A DNA stretch of 10,193 bases, taken from the NCBI GenBank assembly GCA_019246385.1, contig JAFAQP010000092.1:1-10193 (forward strand), given 5' to 3'. Source of the DNA: Patescibacteria group bacterium. GTDB taxonomy: Bacteria > Patescibacteriota > Minisyncoccia > Phycocordibacterales > Phycocordibacteraceae. The notes below the pieces were generated by a model. It saw only the letters and a list, made by a program, of their open reading frames with translations. It was not told the origin of the DNA and did not search any database. Position numbers and translations under genes: made by a program. This document shows positions 2,650 to 9,380 of this stretch, one piece after another (position 1 is the stretch's first letter; each line of letters opens with the position of its first letter).

Positions 2650-2677
2650 TTGCACAGCGAGCCCTTCGCGCTATAGT
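2650..2677 (+). promoter_or_regulatory. Candidate promoter of the thrS leader transcript
   Basis: A TTGCAC box (2650-2655, half matching TTGACA) is separated by 16 bp from TATAGT (2672-2677, five of six matching TATAAT). Transcription would begin near 2684, at or beside the GTG of the Thr-rich leader ORF, so the leader mRNA could be nearly leaderless. The -10 is good and the -35 is weak. The call is supported mainly by the attenuator-like leader that follows. Confidence 0.5.
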
Positions 2678-2683
2678 AAAGGG

Positions 2684-2725
2684 GTGAATACAATACTTAC
2701 CACGACGGCCATCAGGCTCCGCTAA
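2684..2725 (+). CDS. thrS leader peptide (Thr-rich, 13 aa)
   Basis: A very short ORF starting GTG and ending TAA reads MNTILTTTAIRLR. Four of 13 residues are threonine, three of them consecutive (ACC ACG ACG at 2699-2707), and two are isoleucine. It lies just upstream of an intrinsic terminator and of thrS, whose product charges tRNA-Thr. That is the arrangement of leader peptides such as thrL and pheM in E. coli. The stop codon sits in the loop of a CCGC-TAA-GCGG hairpin, so a ribosome terminating there would mask the segment needed for the antiterminator. The peptide probably has no function beyond ribosome stalling when threonyl-tRNA is scarce. The start is uncertain because the frame is open further upstream, but the candidate promoter predicts a transcript starting near 2684. 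The AAAGGGG before it is too close to be an ordinary Shine-Dalgarno. No direct evidence of translation is available from sequence. Confidence 0.65.
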   Translation: MNTILTTTAIRLR

Positions 2726-2757
2726 GCGGGTCTTTTGGCTCATGGCCTACCCCGCTT
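2707..2757 (+). promoter_or_regulatory. Attenuator RNA: alternative hairpins ahead of thrS
   Basis: Several pairings exclude one another. GGCCAT (2707-2712) pairs with ATGGCC (2742-2747) and encloses CCGC-TAA-GCGG (2719-2722 with 2726-2729). This leaves the downstream terminator free to form. Alternatively AAGCGGG (2724-2730) pairs perfectly with CCCGCTT (2751-2757), which destroys the terminator's left arm. A ribosome stalled on the Thr codons at 2699-2707 would cover GGCCAT and CCGC and so favour the second pairing (readthrough). A ribosome at the TAA would cover 2724-2730 and favour termination. The pairings are seen in the sequence; the mechanism is inferred by analogy with classical amino-acid attenuators. 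Confidence 0.62.
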
Positions 2758-2776
2758 CAAGCGGGGTTTTCTTTTT
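2750..2776 (+). terminator. Intrinsic terminator (attenuator terminator) upstream of thrS
   Basis: A GC-only 6-bp stem CCCCGC / GCGGGG (2750-2755 with 2761-2766) closes a TTCAA loop and is followed by TTTTCTTTTT (2767-2776). It is a textbook plus-strand rho-independent terminator; the minus strand has no U-tract. It ends 20 bp before the thrS ATG and about 180 bp after the dnaE stop. It therefore fits a conditional thrS leader terminator and would also stop dnaE readthrough. Confidence 0.85.
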
Positions 2777-2796
2777 AAAAGCTATAATAAAACGAA

Positions 2797-4524
2797 ATGG
2801 AAACGAAACTCGAACACAAACGCCATACGCTCGCTCACCTCTTGGCGGCAGCCGTTATGAACCTCTGGCCCGACACTAAGCGAACGATTGGCCCGGCCAT
2901 CGAAGACGGTTTTTATTTCGATTTCGAATTTTCAAAGCCGATTTCGGAAAAAGACTTTCCCGCTATCGAAAAAGAAATGCGGCGGCTTCTGCCAAGCTGG
3001 ACCTCGTTCACGCGCTCCGAGCTTTCAGCGGAGGAAGCCAAAAAGGAATATCCCGACAATCCCTATAAACACGAACTCATAGAAGAATTCACAAAAGACG
3101 GCGAAAAAGTGTCCTTTTACAAGTCAGGAGACTATTGGGATTTATGCCGGGGCGGGCATGCGGAAAATCCGGCAAAAGAAATACAGTCGGATTCCTGGAA
3201 GCTTGACCGCATTGCCGGCGCCTATTGGCGGGGTAACGAAAAGAACCCTATGCTCACTCGCATCTACGGGCTCGCGTTCGATACCAAAAAAGAACTTGAC
3301 GCGTATATCGAGAAACGGCAGGAAGCTATGGCCCGCGATCATAAAGTTCTCGGCCCGAAGTACGGTCTTTTTATGTTCCACCATACGGCTCCCGGAATGC
3401 CGTATTGGCTGCCGAAAGGCGTCACGATCTATAACGAACTCATAAATTTCTGGCGGGAAGAGCATGCGAAGCGCGGATACCAAGAGATAGTTTCGCCGCT
3501 TCTCAACAAAAAAGAGCTCTACGAAAAAAGTGGCCATTATGAACACTACTGGCCCGACATGTTCAAGATACAGACAGAAGAGAACGAAGAGTACGGCCTG
3601 AAGGCCATGAATTGCCCGAACGCCATGGTCGTATTCGGTTCTACCGGTCGAAGCTACCGTGATTTGCCGCTGCGACTTTCTGACACTGACACGCTTCATC
3701 GCAACGAGCTGTCAGGCACCCTCAATGGCCTTCTGCGCGTACGGGAATTCCGACAGGATGATGCACATATATTCGTGAGCGAGGAACAAATAGAAACGGA
3801 GTATGAAAATATATTCGAGATCGTTGAGCGATTCTATTCAATCTTCGGCATGACATATTCCTTTAATCTGAGTACGCGGCCGGATGCTTTTATGGGCGAT
3901 GTCGCCACCTGGGACAAGGCCGAAGCATCTTTAAAGAAGATACTGGAACGAAGCGGAAAGGAATATGGAATAAAGGAAAAGGACGGCGCCTTCTACGGTC
4001 CAAAAGTGGACATCCATATGAAAGATGTGCTCGGACGGGAATGGCAAATGGGAACGATACAGCTGGATTTTCAGCAGCCGGTGCGCTTCAATCTGGAATA
4101 CACCGCAACTGACGGGAGTAAAAAAACGCCCGTGGCCATTCATCGGGTCGTGTACGGCTCTATGGAACGATTCATCGGAATACTGATAGAACATTACGCG
4201 GGCGCGTTTCCTCTCTGGCTTTCGCCGGTTCAGGTAAAGATACTGCCGGTTTCGGAAAAGCACACCGAATACGCAAAAAACGTTCTCGCAGCACTCAATG
4301 CTGCGAATATCCGAGGGGACCTTGATGACGCGAACGATTCTCTGGGCAAAAAAATACGAAACGCCAAGCAAGAAAAAATCCCCTACCTTTTTGTGGTCGG
4401 GGACAAAGAAAAGGATGCAAAGACGGTATCCGTAGAGAGTCGAGAAGGCTCGGAAGGGCCTCAGCCTCTTGCCGAGATCGTTTCGAGACTTCGCGAAAAA
4501 ATTAATTCTCGCTCAGAGAAATGA
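2797..4524 (+). CDS. thrS: Threonyl-tRNA synthetase lacking the TGS domain
   Basis: This cytosolic class II synthetase attaches threonine to tRNA-Thr and hydrolyses mischarged Ser-tRNA-Thr. At 575 aa it is about 65 residues shorter than E. coli ThrRS because it begins directly in the editing domain. An in-frame TAA at 2788-2790 shows that no TGS domain is encoded upstream. Editing-site residues are H10, H14, C117 and H121 (the last pair in CRGGH; CRGPH in E. coli). The catalytic core (about 190-470) has zinc ligands C273, H324 and H449, with spacing nearly identical to E. coli. It also has motif 2 (HRNELSG, R302, then VREFRQDDAH) and motif 3 (HRVVYGSMERF). The C-terminal 100 residues form the anticodon-binding domain (PVQVKILPV, DLDDANDSLGKKIR, PYLFVVGDKE). 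No Shine-Dalgarno precedes the ATG. Expression is probably controlled by the Thr-leader attenuator just upstream. The usual infC-rpmI-rplT neighbours are absent. Confidence 0.97.
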   Translation: METKLEHKRHTLAHLLAAAVMNLWPDTKRTIGPAIEDGFYFDFEFSKPISEKDFPAIEKEMRRLLPSWTSFTRSELSAEEAKKEYPDNPYKHELIEEFTKDGEKVSFYKSGDYWDLCRGGHAENPAKEIQSDSWKLDRIAGAYWRGNEKNPMLTRIYGLAFDTKKELDAYIEKRQEAMARDHKVLGPKYGLFMFHHTAPGMPYWLPKGVTIYNELINFWREEHAKRGYQEIVSPLLNKKELYEKSGHYEHYWPDMFKIQTEENEEYGLKAMNCPNAMVVFGSTGRSYRDLPLRLSDTDTLHRNELSGTLNGLLRVREFRQDDAHIFVSEEQIETEYENIFEIVERFYSIFGMTYSFNLSTRPDAFMGDVATWDKAEASLKKILERSGKEYGIKEKDGAFYGPKVDIHMKDVLGREWQMGTIQLDFQQPVRFNLEYTATDGSKKTPVAIHRVVYGSMERFIGILIEHYAGAFPLWLSPVQVKILPVSEKHTEYAKNVLAALNAANIRGDLDDANDSLGKKIRNAKQEKIPYLFVVGDKEKDAKTVSVESREGSEGPQPLAEIVSRLREKINSRSEK

Positions 4525-4807: not shown

Positions 4808-7800
4808 TTATCCGAGAATCTCGAACGCCTGCGCGAGGGCCAATTTTACGCCAGTGAATGGCGATGCGTAAACGTGATCAAGCGAGTGTGCGAATACTGC
4901 AACCAGCTGTCCAAGCTTATCATCGCTGACCTGGGCTGCCTTTTCGGCAAGCGCCCTGTCCGGTGCAGTCCGTTGATCGCGGCGCGCCCGGTAAAGCTTG
5001 TCGAAAACGCTCGCCGTCGCGGTCATGAGCGCTGTCGGGGAAACGCCGTCGTGCTCAAGGGAGCGGATTATAGAGAAAGCGCTATCGCGGTCTCCGGAAA
5101 CTATCGCTCCGGCGAATTGCGCGGCTGCGTTTTCATCTATAAGCGCCGCAGGAGCGGAAGCAGCGGGTGTCCCGGTATATGCGGCTGCTGAAGGAGAAAT
5201 GGAAGCCGGGGAAGGCGGAACAGAGGAGGTAGGAGCAGCTTTTCGCGTGTTCAGCTCTTTCAGGCGGTCAGCGGTAAGCATGATCCATCCATCTTCGCGA
5301 GGGAGCATGCGGACAGCATCATTCAGGACGTCGCCGAACATGCGGAGCGCTTCGGCACGATTCGGAGAAAGCGAGACCGCAAGGCTCACTGCCTCCGGCG
5401 ACATAAGCACTCCTGCCGCATGAGCGCGTGATTCTATGACTGCGGCGATATCAGGAAGTGGTGTCGGTTCGGAAGCAGAAACGGCATATGTCGGATTTTG
5501 CACCGGAACAACGGGTACGGGAGCGCCATAAGCTACCGGAGAAGCCGAACCGGACGCGTAGGAACGCGCTGACGCCGGCATAACGGGCATAGACGGAGGC
5601 GTCGTAATCGGAGCGGGTGCAGATAATACTGCTGTTCTTTCGTCGACCGGATAATTTCTGCCGTATTCGGACATATGCCGATACTTATTTTCTTCCGCCA
5701 GAGGGATACCCATGACGCCACCAAGAATGTAAGCGAGTATCGGCCGCAAACCTCCCCTTCCCGTGATGAAGTATGCGGCCATTGCGGAAAGGAGTGCCAC
5801 GGCGAGCCAGAAGATCATGGTCAAGGCTGGTCCGGCTTCAAAACCGGTATACGGGATCTGCGAAAGAGAAACGAAGGCAAGAGGCTGTTCGGTCGGCTGC
5901 GGCAGCAAAGTGACGGTCGGCTGATTGTATCCGCCGCCACCGCATGAGCCGCTGCAGCCGCCTCCTCCCGTCTGAACCGTTATCGGAACCTGGCAAATGA
6001 CAGTCTGCCCGTTCGTACCAAGGAAGGTACCCGTATACGTTGTCGAACTCGGGGGGAATACCGTCACCGAACCGCCGGAAACGGGAGTCGTGGTGCCGAC
6101 ATTGTTGTCGATATGACCAGATACGGTGTTTTGCGAGGTCCATGTCAGGGTCGCACTGTTCCCTGTCGTTATACTGCCAGGCGTTATCGAAAGGGTACAG
6201 ACGGGAGCATTTGGAATAGTAAGGCTTACTGCCGCCGAACATTGCGCGGTGCCGCCCGGCCCCGTTACGGTCAGCGTATAGGTCGTATTTGCGGTCACCG
6301 CTGCAGAGACAGAACCTCCTCCAACAGGCGTGACTGAACCGATGCCGTGGTCAATGACTGCGGAGGTCGCATTCTGCGAAGTCCACGTCAGGGTCGTCGT
6401 ACCGGCTGCGGTAAAGGATGTAGGCGAAGCGGAAAGCGTGCAGACCGGACTGTTCGGCGGAGGATTGACTACTATGGTCGTAGCGCAATTCGCGCTCGTG
6501 CCTCCTGCTCCGTACACGATTGCAGAATAGGTCGTCGTCGTTGTGGGTGACACGTTGAATGAACCGTTGGCGGGCGAAGTCGTTATGGTCGTCGTGCCGA
6601 TGCCGTGATCAAAGACGATGGCGGTCGCGTTCATCGCAGTCCACATGATCTGGGTGGATTGTCCGGACTGAATGGTGGAAAGAGTGGCGGTCGCTTCGCA
6701 CACGGGAGCCTTGGGAGGCGGAATGACCTGCTGGTTCTTGAACACTACTCCTGCGCATTGCTTGCCAGCGGTCACGACCACCTGGCCGTTCGTCGGCGTT
6801 ACAGAAAGCAGTTTCCATGTCGGACCAGCATCCACTTCCGTCACGGTATGTGTGCCGGGAGATACGTTATCGAAGAGAGCGTCGCCGTTCGCGTCGTTCT
6901 TGACTGTCTGGCCATCATCGAGCGTGAACGTGAACTGCGCGACGGTCGAGAGTTTATTAGCATTTGGATCGAAAGTTTCCTTGAGGATCTGGATGCAGCC
7001 TTTGTTCGGAGGGACGACCTGCTGGTTGACGAATGTCACATGGGCGCAATCCCTGCCTGCCTGAACATTTATGTCCCCATTCGTCGGCGTTACGGAAAGC
7101 AGTTTCCAGTTTTGGCCTCCTTGGATCTCTTCCACGTGATGGCCCCCGGGGTCGACGTCATTGAATTGCGCTTCCCCTGTCGAATCGTTCTGTGTGGTGA
7201 CGCTGCCATCAAGCTTGAAAGTGAACTGCGCGACGGTCGAAAGTTTCGCTCCCGAAGGATCAAGCGTCACCTTCGTTACCTCGATGCAACCTTTCTGAGG
7301 GGGCGGAGGAACCTGCTTGTTCTTGAAGTATATCTTCGCGCAGCCACCCGGGTTGGAGGAATCGGCCGGCTGGGTAGGACCGACTGCAACGGTGCCTGAA
7401 GAAGGATCTTCCGATACTAATTTCCATCCGCTTCCCGGATCAACTTCGTCTACCTGATGGTTGCCCAGCGACAGGTTGGTGAAGAATGCGATCCCGTTCG
7501 GATCGTTCTGAACCGTCTGGTTGCCATCAAGCCTGAAGGTAAACGGCGCGACGGGAGTGATCTTATTTCCGCGCGCATCGTACGTTTCTTTTATGATCTG
7601 GATGCAACCTTTCTGAGGCGGCGGAGGGACCTGCTGGTTCTTGAAATATATCTTTGCGCAATCGGAACCGCCGTTCACGGTAACGTTGCCGTCTGAAGGA
7701 CTAACCGAAACGAGATGCCACGAAGCGCCTGGATCGTCTTCGCTTACGTGATAATTACCGGGCGTAAGGTTCTGGAAGAACGCATTGCCGGATGTATCGT

Positions 7801-8626
7801 TTTGGACCGTACCGTCTCCTTGCAGTCTGAAAGTGAAGGGAGGAACGCTCGAAAGCTTGTTTCCGTTCGCATCGTCCGCTTCTTTGATTATCTGGATGCA
7901 GCCTTTGGGCGGAGGGACCTGCTGGTTCTTGAAATTTATCGTGACGCAACGGTTGGAGTGGACGACTATATCTCCAGACGCTGGCTGGCTCGAAAGAAGG
8001 GTCCAGCCGCTTCCAGGATTGAGTTCGGACACATGGTGCGTGCCGACATCGACATCATCAAACTCAGCCGTTCCGCCGGTGTCGTTTTGTGCAGTCGCTC
8101 CTCCATCAAGCTGGAATGTAAATGTAGGGACATTGGTGATACGGTTGCCTGCAGAATCGAAAGCTTCTTTGACGACGATTATGCAGCCCGGAGTCGGACC
8201 GCCTCCTCCGCCGCCGCCTCCGCCGCCTCCGCCGCCTCCGCAGGCTGTACCGCAACCTCCGCCGCCGCCGCCGCAGTCTGTACCGCAACCTCCGCCTCCG
8301 CCGCCGCAGTCTGTACCGCAACCGCCCCCTCCGCCACCACCGCAATCATCGGCGTAAGCGCTTATGCTCATTGAAGAAAGCGAGGAAAGGGATTTAAGGC
8401 CTGCGGAAACTAGTGAATGTGAGCTTACCGCAGTAGCCAAAAAACCCCTCGTGTTTGCATTGTTGTTATAGAGAAACTCCGGTGGACAATCTTCACCGTG
8501 GACGGCTATAGCCGAGGAATGGAAAGCTGATATTGCTTCATCGACACCCACCCACGCGCTTACTATCCAAATAGCCATAACTGGCAGGAGGGCGAGCGTA
8601 ATTTTTATTTTCGTATTGAAATTCAT
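4808..8626 (-). CDS. Large sortase-type surface protein: SpaA/Cna-B repeats, Ig-like repeats, IPYTG, membrane helix, long cytosolic tail
   Basis: This is a predicted exported, cell-surface stalk of 1272 aa, probably adhesive. I start at the ATG at 8626, which yields a signal peptide (K6, K8, then ITLALLPVMAIWIVSAWVG); a TTG 48 bp further upstream would overlap the sortase gene. Domain order: signal 1-40; Gly/Cys hinge 93-145; five SpaA/Cna-B-like repeats starting at G147, G242, G340, G446 and G543; three Ig-like repeats (conserved TLTWTSQNAT, TTTYT) with first Cys at 643, 729 and 810; Gly/Cys spacer; IPYTG at 924-928; hydrophobic helix 934-955; then about 317 residues. Each SpaA repeat keeps the Lys (I-I-K-E), Glu (H-x-V-x-E) and Asn (F-K-N-Q-Q) expected for an internal isopeptide bond. 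The tail is an Ala/Pro/Ser-rich linker joining two helical segments and resembles nothing I can name. Sortase substrates normally end soon after the helix. The adjacent sortase is the likely partner. The ligand is unknown. Confidence 0.88.
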   Translation of the reverse strand: MNFNTKIKITLALLPVMAIWIVSAWVGVDEAISAFHSSAIAVHGEDCPPEFLYNNNANTRGFLATAVSSHSLVSAGLKSLSSLSSMSISAYADDCGGGGGGGCGTDCGGGGGGCGTDCGGGGGGCGTACGGGGGGGGGGGGGGPTPGCIIVVKEAFDSAGNRITNVPTFTFQLDGGATAQNDTGGTAEFDDVDVGTHHVSELNPGSGWTLLSSQPASGDIVVHSNRCVTINFKNQQVPPPKGCIQIIKEADDANGNKLSSVPPFTFRLQGDGTVQNDTSGNAFFQNLTPGNYHVSEDDPGASWHLVSVSPSDGNVTVNGGSDCAKIYFKNQQVPPPPQKGCIQIIKETYDARGNKITPVAPFTFRLDGNQTVQNDPNGIAFFTNLSLGNHQVDEVDPGSGWKLVSEDPSSGTVAVGPTQPADSSNPGGCAKIYFKNKQVPPPPQKGCIEVTKVTLDPSGAKLSTVAQFTFKLDGSVTTQNDSTGEAQFNDVDPGGHHVEEIQGGQNWKLLSVTPTNGDINVQAGRDCAHVTFVNQQVVPPNKGCIQILKETFDPNANKLSTVAQFTFTLDDGQTVKNDANGDALFDNVSPGTHTVTEVDAGPTWKLLSVTPTNGQVVVTAGKQCAGVVFKNQQVIPPPKAPVCEATATLSTIQSGQSTQIMWTAMNATAIVFDHGIGTTTITTSPANGSFNVSPTTTTTYSAIVYGAGGTSANCATTIVVNPPPNSPVCTLSASPTSFTAAGTTTLTWTSQNATSAVIDHGIGSVTPVGGGSVSAAVTANTTYTLTVTGPGGTAQCSAAVSLTIPNAPVCTLSITPGSITTGNSATLTWTSQNTVSGHIDNNVGTTTPVSGGSVTVFPPSSTTYTGTFLGTNGQTVICQVPITVQTGGGGCSGSCGGGGYNQPTVTLLPQPTEQPLAFVSLSQIPYTGFEAGPALTMIFWLAVALLSAMAAYFITGRGGLRPILAYILGGVMGIPLAEENKYRHMSEYGRNYPVDERTAVLSAPAPITTPPSMPVMPASARSYASGSASPVAYGAPVPVVPVQNPTYAVSASEPTPLPDIAAVIESRAHAAGVLMSPEAVSLAVSLSPNRAEALRMFGDVLNDAVRMLPREDGWIMLTADRLKELNTRKAAPTSSVPPSPASISPSAAAYTGTPAASAPAALIDENAAAQFAGAIVSGDRDSAFSIIRSLEHDGVSPTALMTATASVFDKLYRARRDQRTAPDRALAEKAAQVSDDKLGQLVAVFAHSLDHVYASPFTGVKLALAQAFEILG
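5975..6712 (-). repeat. Three Ig-like repeats in the surface protein
   Basis: These are three tandem units of about 81-86 aa, each beginning PVC and containing a W-T-(S/A)-(Q/M)-N strand, a G-I-G or N-V-G turn followed by T-T/V-T, a TTTYT or NTTYT strand, and a second Cys near the end. The paired cysteines suggest one disulfide per unit. Units two and three are the most alike. They form the membrane-proximal part of the stalk. Confidence 0.75.
6722..8188 (-). repeat. Five SpaA/Cna-B-like tandem repeats in the surface protein
   Basis: Units of 285-318 nt begin at minus-strand positions 8188, 7903, 7609, 7291 and 7000. Each starts G-C-I, has F-T-F-x-L, a Q-N-D or K-N-D turn, an H-x-V-x-E strand, a W-x-L-(L/V)-S strand and a closing F-K-N-Q-Q-V-P-P-P linker (F-V-N in unit four). 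Unit three carries an extra loop of about ten residues rich in P, S and N. DNA between units is visibly similar, especially across the linker, which suggests duplication within the gene. Confidence 0.85.
8198..8350 (-). repeat. 33-nt tandem repeat encoding a Gly/Cys hinge
   Basis: The motif C-G-T-D-C followed by six glycines recurs with an exact 33-nt period; corresponding plus-strand positions are 8246, 8279 and 8312. It is followed by an uninterrupted run of about 14 glycines. The coding strand is rich in GGC/GGA codons. The product is a flexible polyglycine segment with regularly spaced cysteines between the N-terminal region and the first SpaA repeat. Confidence 0.85.
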
Positions 8627-8648
8627 GTGGGTGATAAATGTATATAAC

Positions 8649-9380
8649 TTAGGAAGCTGGGTTTGCGGAAACAAAGTCCGCCGTCACGACGTACCGATCG
8701 GTCTTTTTTCCGAACACATCGCAGGTGCTGAGGATGAGCGTGCGTTCGCCGCTGCCCAGCTCTATTTGGGCGTCGTCGGCGTTCACATGCTCTACAGTTT
8801 TCACGCGGTAATGATACTGGCCGGTTTCTGAAGAAACGATGATTTCATCGCCTGCTTTCAGGTTCTGTATCCCATTGAAAGCTTTGAATGCCTTGTTATG
8901 GACGATCGGAAGGTAGCTTTGATGGGCGAAGATGTACACCCGGGCATTCTCTCCGAGAAGTCCAGACTCCGGGTATCTGACCGCTCCCTTCAGGAGGAAG
9001 TTGTTGAGAACAGTATTGTCAATGCTGCTCGGGTTCTCAACTGGCGTATCGATGCCTACGGAAGGCGCTTCTATCCGGACTGGAACTTCCATAGAAGCCC
9101 CAGAGGAAGAAACGGAGGAAGAAACGATAGGCTGCGCTCTTCCCGTTGTTGCCGCAAGCGCTTGCCGGGTTCCCGATCCATTAACGACGTCCGAACTTGC
9201 GAAGCTCGTCGTGACATTCCCGGTCGTGTCTATGTTTGCGGCATTTTTTGGTGCTTCAGGTACGAAATCGACACCGAAAAGAATCGTCGCAAAAAGAAAG
9301 AACACGACAAGAAACACGAGAAGGAACTCCCATGGTCTGAAGCCGGTATTTTTATCGCGTGTATTTTGGTCTCCATCCAT
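8649..9380 (-). CDS. Sortase, membrane-anchored transpeptidase
   Basis: This is a cysteine transpeptidase that would cleave a sorting motif in exported proteins outside the membrane and transfer the product to an acceptor; its class is not assigned. The 243-aa protein has a short cytosolic N-terminus, one hydrophobic helix (WEFLLVFLVVFFLFATILF, about 17-35), a Ser/Ala/Thr-rich linker to about residue 98, and a C-terminal sortase barrel. Catalytic residues are visible: H153 in IFAHQS, C220 in LSTCD and R229 in DRYVV, in the order and spacing expected for the family. VRIEAPSVGIDTPVE is the typical start of the barrel. It is the first gene behind the TTGACA promoter at 9438-9466. It ends 22 bp before the ATG of the IPYTG surface protein, so that protein is the obvious substrate. 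No Shine-Dalgarno is seen before the ATG. Confidence 0.94.
   Translation of the reverse strand: MDGDQNTRDKNTGFRPWEFLLVFLVVFFLFATILFGVDFVPEAPKNAANIDTTGNVTTSFASSDVVNGSGTRQALAATTGRAQPIVSSSVSSSGASMEVPVRIEAPSVGIDTPVENPSSIDNTVLNNFLLKGAVRYPESGLLGENARVYIFAHQSYLPIVHNKAFKAFNGIQNLKAGDEIIVSSETGQYHYRVKTVEHVNADDAQIELGSGERTLILSTCDVFGKKTDRYVVTADFVSANPAS

Follow-up and report, generated by a model that had tools for sequence, protein, structure and literature searches.

A probable threonine leader-peptide attenuator before thrS in a Patescibacteria genome, with comparable leaders elsewhere in the phylum

Leader-peptide attenuation is a textbook mechanism of gene regulation. The enterobacterial attenuators (trp, thr, his and pheST) combine a short open reading frame (ORF) containing cognate codons with 1:2, 2:3 and 3:4 pairings and an intrinsic terminator. 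In Escherichia coli, thrS is controlled by a translational operator, in which threonyl-tRNA synthetase (ThrRS) binds tRNA-like arms of the mRNA near the Shine–Dalgarno (SD) sequence. Attenuation before synthetase genes is reportedly treated by Lopatovskaya et al. in 2010, whose work may contain earlier thrS cases. How Patescibacteria regulate their genes is, to our knowledge, still poorly understood.

In bacilli, leader peptides replace T-boxes before hisS, and the available excerpts of the paper describing them state that leader peptides had previously been known only from Proteobacteria and Actinobacteria (PMC2965389). For thrS, excerpts of a study of Streptomyces lividans TK24 report a leader, thrL, located before thrS on a transcript found to be leaderless by RNA-seq; its peptide, MKRVRPFLETTPGFVPAR, contains two Thr residues and, within these excerpts, is accompanied by no clear terminator (PMC8079986).

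The locus described here lies in a window, i.e., the whole analyzed stretch of 10,193 nt, which is a contig of an ultra-small, uncultured Patescibacteria group bacterium whose genome is represented by 691 kb; this lineage agrees with the CPR-type organism that the initial annotation had proposed. In this window, dnaE ends at 2571 and thrS starts at 2797, and all leader elements are located between them, the leader ORF and both promoter elements being read directly from the sequence:

2650..2677, + strand: promoter P1, with a weak −35 TTGCAC (2650–2655) and a −10 TATAGT (2672–2677)
2684..2725, + strand: Thr leader ORF of 13 codons, VNTILTTTAIRLR, with a GTG start and the stop TAA at 2723–2725
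2700..2745, + strand: hairpin 1:2 (protective); the fold of 2684–2748 has −20.8 kcal/mol, z −2.1
2724..2757, + strand: antiterminator 2:3, AAGCGGG (2724–2730) with CCCGCTT (2751–2757), a perfect 7 bp
2749..2776, + strand: intrinsic terminator 3:4, stem 2749–2756/2760–2767, T-tract to 2776
2783..2788, + strand: putative −10 box of a second promoter, P2, a perfect TATAAT 8 nt before the thrS ATG
2797..4524, + strand: thrS, threonyl-tRNA synthetase of 575 aa (Pfam PF00587, PF03129, PF07973), start ATG

Thr occupies codons 3, 6, 7 and 8 of the leader ORF VNTILTTTAIRLR, and most of codons 6–8 lie inside hairpin 1:2, which is the sole hairpin in the fold of 2684–2748 and in which the UAA stop forms precisely the triloop. 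The antiterminator (2723–2757) folds with −14.4 kcal/mol (z −2.5), and its 2:3 score reaches p = 0.033 against shuffles of the intervening sequence. Its downstream partner, CCCGCTT, is at the same time the 5' arm of the terminator, which reads ACCCCGCT-TCA-AGCGGGGT at 2749–2767 (−13.6 kcal/mol, z −4.7). An intrinsic terminator is thus present between leader and gene, and the end of its T-tract (2776) is separated from thrS (2797) by 20 bp in which neither an SD nor a hairpin is visible on reading the sequence only. The leader as a whole (2684–2775) folds with −34.9 kcal/mol and z −4.1, none of 200 shuffles being equally stable. Each element was found where the initial annotation had placed it, and the 13-codon Thr ORF, the hairpin with the stop in its loop, the 7-bp alternative pairing and the terminator were all borne out by sequence and folding.

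The locus shares with the enterobacterial trp, thr, his and pheST attenuators the cognate-codon ORF, the 1:2, 2:3 and 3:4 pairings and the terminator; however, its target is thrS, its leader is apparently leaderless and there seems to be a second promoter past the terminator. The E. coli operator also controls thrS, whereas no SD precedes the window's thrS and the gap from the T-tract to the ATG is only 20 nt. A Thr-containing leader peptide before thrS is common to the window and S. lividans, although, compared with what the excerpts on thrL describe, the window has a run of Thr codons, an intrinsic terminator and a matched antiterminator, and belongs to a different phylum (PMC8079986). The interchange of leader peptides and T-boxes before one and the same synthetase gene resembles the bacilli case as excerpted, which concerns hisS in Firmicutes rather than thrS in Patescibacteria (PMC2965389). 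The mechanism itself is therefore known, and what appears to be new is its extension to Patescibacteria together with an unusual tandem-promoter, leaderless layout. The initial annotation had been aware of no such case for this lineage and, among the matches listed from open-licence PMC full texts, we likewise found no description of leader-peptide attenuation in Patescibacteria.

We consider it probable (roughly 85%) that these elements form a ribosome-mediated leader-peptide transcription attenuator through which thrS would sense the charging of tRNA-Thr. This reading, first put forward in the initial annotation, draws on the sequence elements, the comparative pattern and the pairing and stall computations described below, and gained support from the comparative specificity, the geometry, the 2:3 pairing and the stall logic. 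The transcript starts, leaderless translation, ribosome stalling, direction of the response and role of P2 are what we infer in the following scheme. Transcription from P1 would begin near 2684, with the RNA 5' end at or beside the leader GTG, and the leader ORF would be translated without an SD. When Thr-tRNA is ample, the ribosome would arrive at the stop (2723) and either cover segment 2 or depart, letting hairpin 1:2 form, and terminator 3:4 would halt transcription ahead of thrS. When Thr-tRNA is scarce, a ribosome stalled at codons 6–8 would open hairpin 1:2, and segment 2 (2724–2730) would pair with segment 3 (2751–2757), precluding the terminator and allowing read-through into thrS. 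P2 (2783–2788), located past the terminator, would probably yield a basal leaderless thrS transcript. A Thr-specific attenuator of this kind would imply that transcription and translation are coupled tightly enough for the position of a ribosome to steer the choice of terminator, and that leader ORFs at the 5' end of the RNA are translated. Moreover, the leader is a candidate reporter of threonine starvation, which could be assayed in a surrogate host or traced in metatranscriptomes.

The comparative pattern was obtained from 258 thrS upstream regions (loci and genomes are cited by our own handles, L and G), composed of a family part, loci with organism names and a phylum draw. From 105 family genomes, with G007, G010, G033, G038, G064 and G070 among those left out, come the 30 best loci, one of which is the window, plus another 60 places. 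A further 58 loci carry organism names, and 110 places, top-ranked by similarity to a leader-bearing Roizmanbacteria ThrRS, stem from 380 phylum genomes drawn evenly. Five upstream regions were discarded as masked or too short; collapsing identical ends reduced the set to 245, and clustering by shared 60-mers to 241. L040, L041, L042, L061, L064, L072 and L084 carry no Patescibacteria label. A Thr leader was defined as a short ORF with at least four Thr per six codons that ends at least 30 nt before thrS, a rule that excludes one ORF with at least four Thr, in L008 of genus-mate G101.

By this definition, 34 of the 241 non-redundant upstream regions have a Thr leader, the next residues, Ser and Arg, reaching 11, and 207 have none. 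At a threshold of at least five in six the counts are 21 for Thr and 1 for the next residue, while lowering it to three blurs the signal (Leu 85, Thr 53, Ser 52). Dinucleotide shuffles of the first 140 upstream regions (100 shuffles) gave a mean of 0.46 loci and a maximum of 3, against 20 observed. The phylum-draw set alone, a biased estimate of frequency since its places were ranked by similarity to a leader-bearing ThrRS, has 15/105 at four or more (next residue 6) and 10/105 at five or more (next 0). Upstream regions of other synthetase genes, some of them partly coding because start codons had to be guessed, reach four or more Thr in 3/155 cases and five or more in 0/155. For thrS, the corresponding counts among 245 are 35 and 22 (Fisher p 1.4e-5 at four or more); the 155 controls consist of 89 ileS, leuS and valS regions from phylum draws and 66 of several kinds from the genus. 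The short ORF with a run of cognate codons is thus both Thr-specific and thrS-specific.

A Thr-rich ORF followed by a terminator was found at 22 loci, of which L214 was dropped for its T-box motif and accidental-looking ORF, leaving 21 (20 after clustering). In these leaders, the distance from stop to terminator is confined to 23–37 nt (median 28), and segment 2, counted from the first base of the stop, begins at +1 to +15 in all except L077; in the window it occupies +1 to +7. The arms themselves vary, with pairs such as GCGGGG/CCCCGC, GGAGGG/CCCTCC, CGGAGGTT/AACCTCCG and AAGCGGG/CCCGCTT. Because the leaders were judged too divergent for a covariance model, arms were swapped among 19 loci, the near duplicates L046 and L128 having been removed. 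The loci's own 2:3 pairings sum to 312, against a swapped mean of 247 (sd 11.5; p = 0.00005, a value that ignores relatedness among the loci). Some arms in this set are alike, since L009, L039 and L012 share GGCGG/CCGCC and L074 resembles L075. With kinship among loci left aside, the result is covariation between segments 2 and 3. Each at its own locus, the window's arm ranks first of the 19 and that of L077 a poor 15th, and the 2:3 match taken singly falls below p = 0.05 in only 6/22 loci.

In the stall computation, RNA was masked up to 12 nt from the ribosome A-site and the remainder folded. Across the 21 loci, the sequestered fraction of arm 3 averages 0.86 for a ribosome stalled at Thr codons, 0.48 for one at the stop and 0.34 when none is present; the corresponding values in the window are 0.72, 0.02 and 0.31. 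Sequestration is higher at the stall than at the stop in 18/21 loci and higher than without a ribosome in 20/21. The mean difference between stall and no ribosome is 0.53, against 0.17 when the spacer is shuffled (maximum of 20 repeats 0.27), and that between stall and stop is 0.38 against 0.05 (maximum 0.15). Most of this excess comes from the stall itself (0.86, compared with 0.60 in shuffles), whereas the values at the stop (0.48 against 0.54) and without a ribosome (0.34 against 0.43) stay near their shuffles. An exclusive antiterminator, covered when the ribosome is at the stop and free when it stalls at cognate codons, is therefore predicted in the window, and other loci are less clean: arm 3 exceeds 0.6 at the stop in 9/21 (L032, L009, L012, L051, L058, L063, L076, L127 and L128) and is at least 0.78 without a ribosome in 5/21 (L012, L046, L067, L077 and L171).

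Regarding promoters, the −10 of P1 predicts a transcript start at about 2684, where the initial annotation had also expected it, although a promoter scan of the window lists none at P1, whose −35 is poor. If the RNA does start there, no space is left for an SD, and translation of the leader ORF would be leaderless. A TANNNT box ends 6–9 nt 5' of the leader start in 15 of the 21 terminator-bearing Thr leaders (random positions: mean 2.2, maximum 7), and in seven of the 15 a full TTGACA precedes it by 16–17 nt. These boxes directly before the leader starts suggest that leader RNAs begin at or near the start codon and are probably translated leaderless. The second box, P2, which did not figure in the initial annotation, is located 7 nt past the T-tract, and a TANNNT likewise ends 4–12 nt before thrS in 14/21 loci with a Thr leader, where random positions give a mean of 3.0 and a maximum of 7. 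A −10 box shortly before thrS is also present in 123 of the 245 thrS upstream regions overall. Such boxes make it likely that thrS has its own basal, nearly leaderless promoter, with the attenuator governing the additional P1. Attenuation may then be limited to transcripts initiated at P1, leaving the P2 share of thrS expression unaffected, and P2 could even make the attenuator redundant.

Within the window's family (f1), terminator-bearing Thr leaders occur in the window, L003/L032, L009, L010/L039, L012, L127 and L128, the last two with a weak T-tract, and further ones are found at loci named Roizmanbacteria, Woesebacteria, Brennerbacteria and others. The 21 leaders are scattered across the ThrRS tree. 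The closest thrS (L003/L032, protein 73% identical) has the same layout, with the leader MQLVTTTTTAF. Homologous leaders with Thr runs and the alternative pairing, which the initial annotation had recommended seeking in related genomes, thus exist and pass the controls of specificity, geometry, 2:3 pairing and stalling. Conservation in relatives is nevertheless partial: the arrangement recurs elsewhere in the family and the phylum, although within the genus the window alone has it in full among the nine members whose thrS match is full-length (G102 lacks one and stands outside the nine). Genus-mates G096, G100 and G103 have T-box-like elements before thrS, G101 (L008) has a 29-codon ORF with four Thr in six codons that lacks a terminator and ends 9 nt before thrS, and neither a Thr leader nor a T-box-like element was seen in the thrS upstream regions of G097, G098, G099 and G104. 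In the ThrRS tree (110 rows), which counts two leader groups only against each other and was used for placing and spread alone, the window groups with the leader-bearing L032 and with L033, where the leader is absent (SH-aLRT 99), apart from the genus-mates. This grouping outside the genus suggests that thrS and its leader may have arrived jointly by transfer.

The distribution of terminators bears on the foremost alternative, which we deem improbable, i.e., that the hairpin terminates the upstream dnaE unit, that thrS is transcribed only from the leaderless P2 and that the Thr ORF arose by chance. A terminator lies within 110 nt of thrS in 25 of 85 family f1 upstream regions, seven with a Thr leader, five with a T-box motif and 13 with neither, whose terminators may belong to the upstream gene. 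The 18 of these 25 loci that lack a Thr leader (five with the T-box motif), the genus-mates without the full arrangement and the TATAAT of P2 at 2783–2788 are what this alternative would lead one to expect. However, a chance ORF is difficult to reconcile with the Thr-specific enrichment before thrS and the narrow spacing from stop to terminator, with the matched 2:3 arms (p = 0.00005, kinship ignored) or with −10 boxes directly before the leader starts in 15/21 loci against a null of 2.2.

P2 invites a second alternative, very unlikely in our judgment, in which the leader acts by transcriptional interference and read-through from P1 occludes P2. The −10 of P2 is only 7 nt past the T-tract, and no SD is seen before the thrS ATG in the window that would explain translation of thrS from P1 read-through RNA, which may therefore be poorly translated. 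Against this, L051, L054, L077 and L246 have no P2 box yet do have an SD-like word before thrS, although neither is present at L063, L075 and L076; moreover, interference would presumably lower ThrRS just when charged tRNA runs short, contrary to what would be useful. Attenuation of P1 transcripts remains our preferred reading.

Control of the window's thrS by a T-box or another known RNA family can be set aside almost entirely, for, although T-box-like motifs precede thrS in three genus-mates and at further loci of the survey (36/245), the window gives no hit to the Rfam T-box (RF00230) at E up to 5, the T-box bulge motif GGTGGNACCG is absent from the window's leader, and no locus combines it with an ORF of at least four Thr. 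The figure of 36/245 in the thrS survey allows up to one mismatch to GGTGGNACCG. The Rfam check that the initial annotation had advised, for T-boxes and other leaders, therefore returned no T-box and no credible family; an anti-hemB match at 2716–2774, one of six weak ones, scores 19.1 bits against a gathering threshold of 49.5 (E 0.99) and is not credible.

The T-box-like antiterminators of the genus-mates (GGTGGAACCGCGG) are found before thrS of G100, G103 and G096 (L022, L097 and L011, respectively). A promoter-like sequence lies a few tens of bases 5' of each, comprising TTGACA and TATAGT in L022 and L097, which leaves space for one hairpin and apparently none for a Stem I with specifier. 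The Rfam T-box model aligns to L011 only at positions 147–216 of 219, with 29.8 bits against a gathering threshold of 93. These elements could possibly represent a T-box devoid of Stem I. Their occurrence suggests that leader peptides and T-box-like elements may substitute for each other before one gene inside a single genus.

Leaders before other synthetase genes were also encountered in the genus. An IAVII leader precedes L280 of G096 and an LLSFLL leader precedes L300 of G102, genes that we take to be ileS and leuS from Pfam PF00133 and sequence motifs; their terminators lie 237 and 184 nt, respectively, before the starts taken, and another small ORF would fit in between. A weaker case is the IIKI leader with terminator before ileS of G099 and G098 (L273/L274). 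The leaders of L280 and L300 hint at a design that may extend beyond thrS alone. In the phylum draws of ileS, leuS and valS, a cognate run of at least four with a terminator was found in 1/89 upstream regions (L378), so that the design is rare before these genes. The window's genome yielded no cognate leader with a terminator before five other synthetase-type matches (L261, L276, L316, L331 and L340) or before leuS (L381), where the match of L331 is below the family cut-off, the start of L261 looks misplaced (the stretch reads as coding) and the valS start is unreadable. General attenuation of synthetases across the phylum, considered as a candidate, is unsupported by this one case in 89 and by the window's genome, where none was flagged.

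A broader picture, to which we lend somewhat less than even credence, would make thrS a hub of tRNA-charging control throughout Patescibacteria. Its sensors, T-boxes and repeatedly gained Thr leaders, would be interchangeable, its leader ORFs leaderless and, in numerous species, a booster promoter under attenuation would precede a terminator-shielded leaderless basal promoter, attenuation coupled to leaderless translation being a main route of amino-acid sensing in these minimal bacteria.

Several further observations concern these loci and their surroundings. Thr-rich leaders of a second class, likewise located before thrS, carry a short hairpin, ACCCC-loop-GGGGT, at or near the leader stop (L154, L155, L158, L162, L163, L166/L082, L175, L176, L187, L190, L200, L202 and others), and the alphaproteobacterial L041 and L042 also belong to it; the scan found no separate downstream terminator in this class. 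At L045 and L046, the Thr leader ORF begins directly after a tRNA-Val gene, so that leader and tRNA may share a transcript. In 24 family f1 genomes, thrS matches only from about query residue 160–180, mostly in open frames of about 410–480 codons, and this form of ThrRS without the N-terminal part is found at L130–L149 of family f1, L146 excepted. In the remainder of the window, a gene on the − strand (4808–8674) encodes a protein of 1288 aa that has repeated domains as well as repeats rich in glycine and cysteine, and it adjoins a sortase gene (PF04203) on the same strand (8649–9380).
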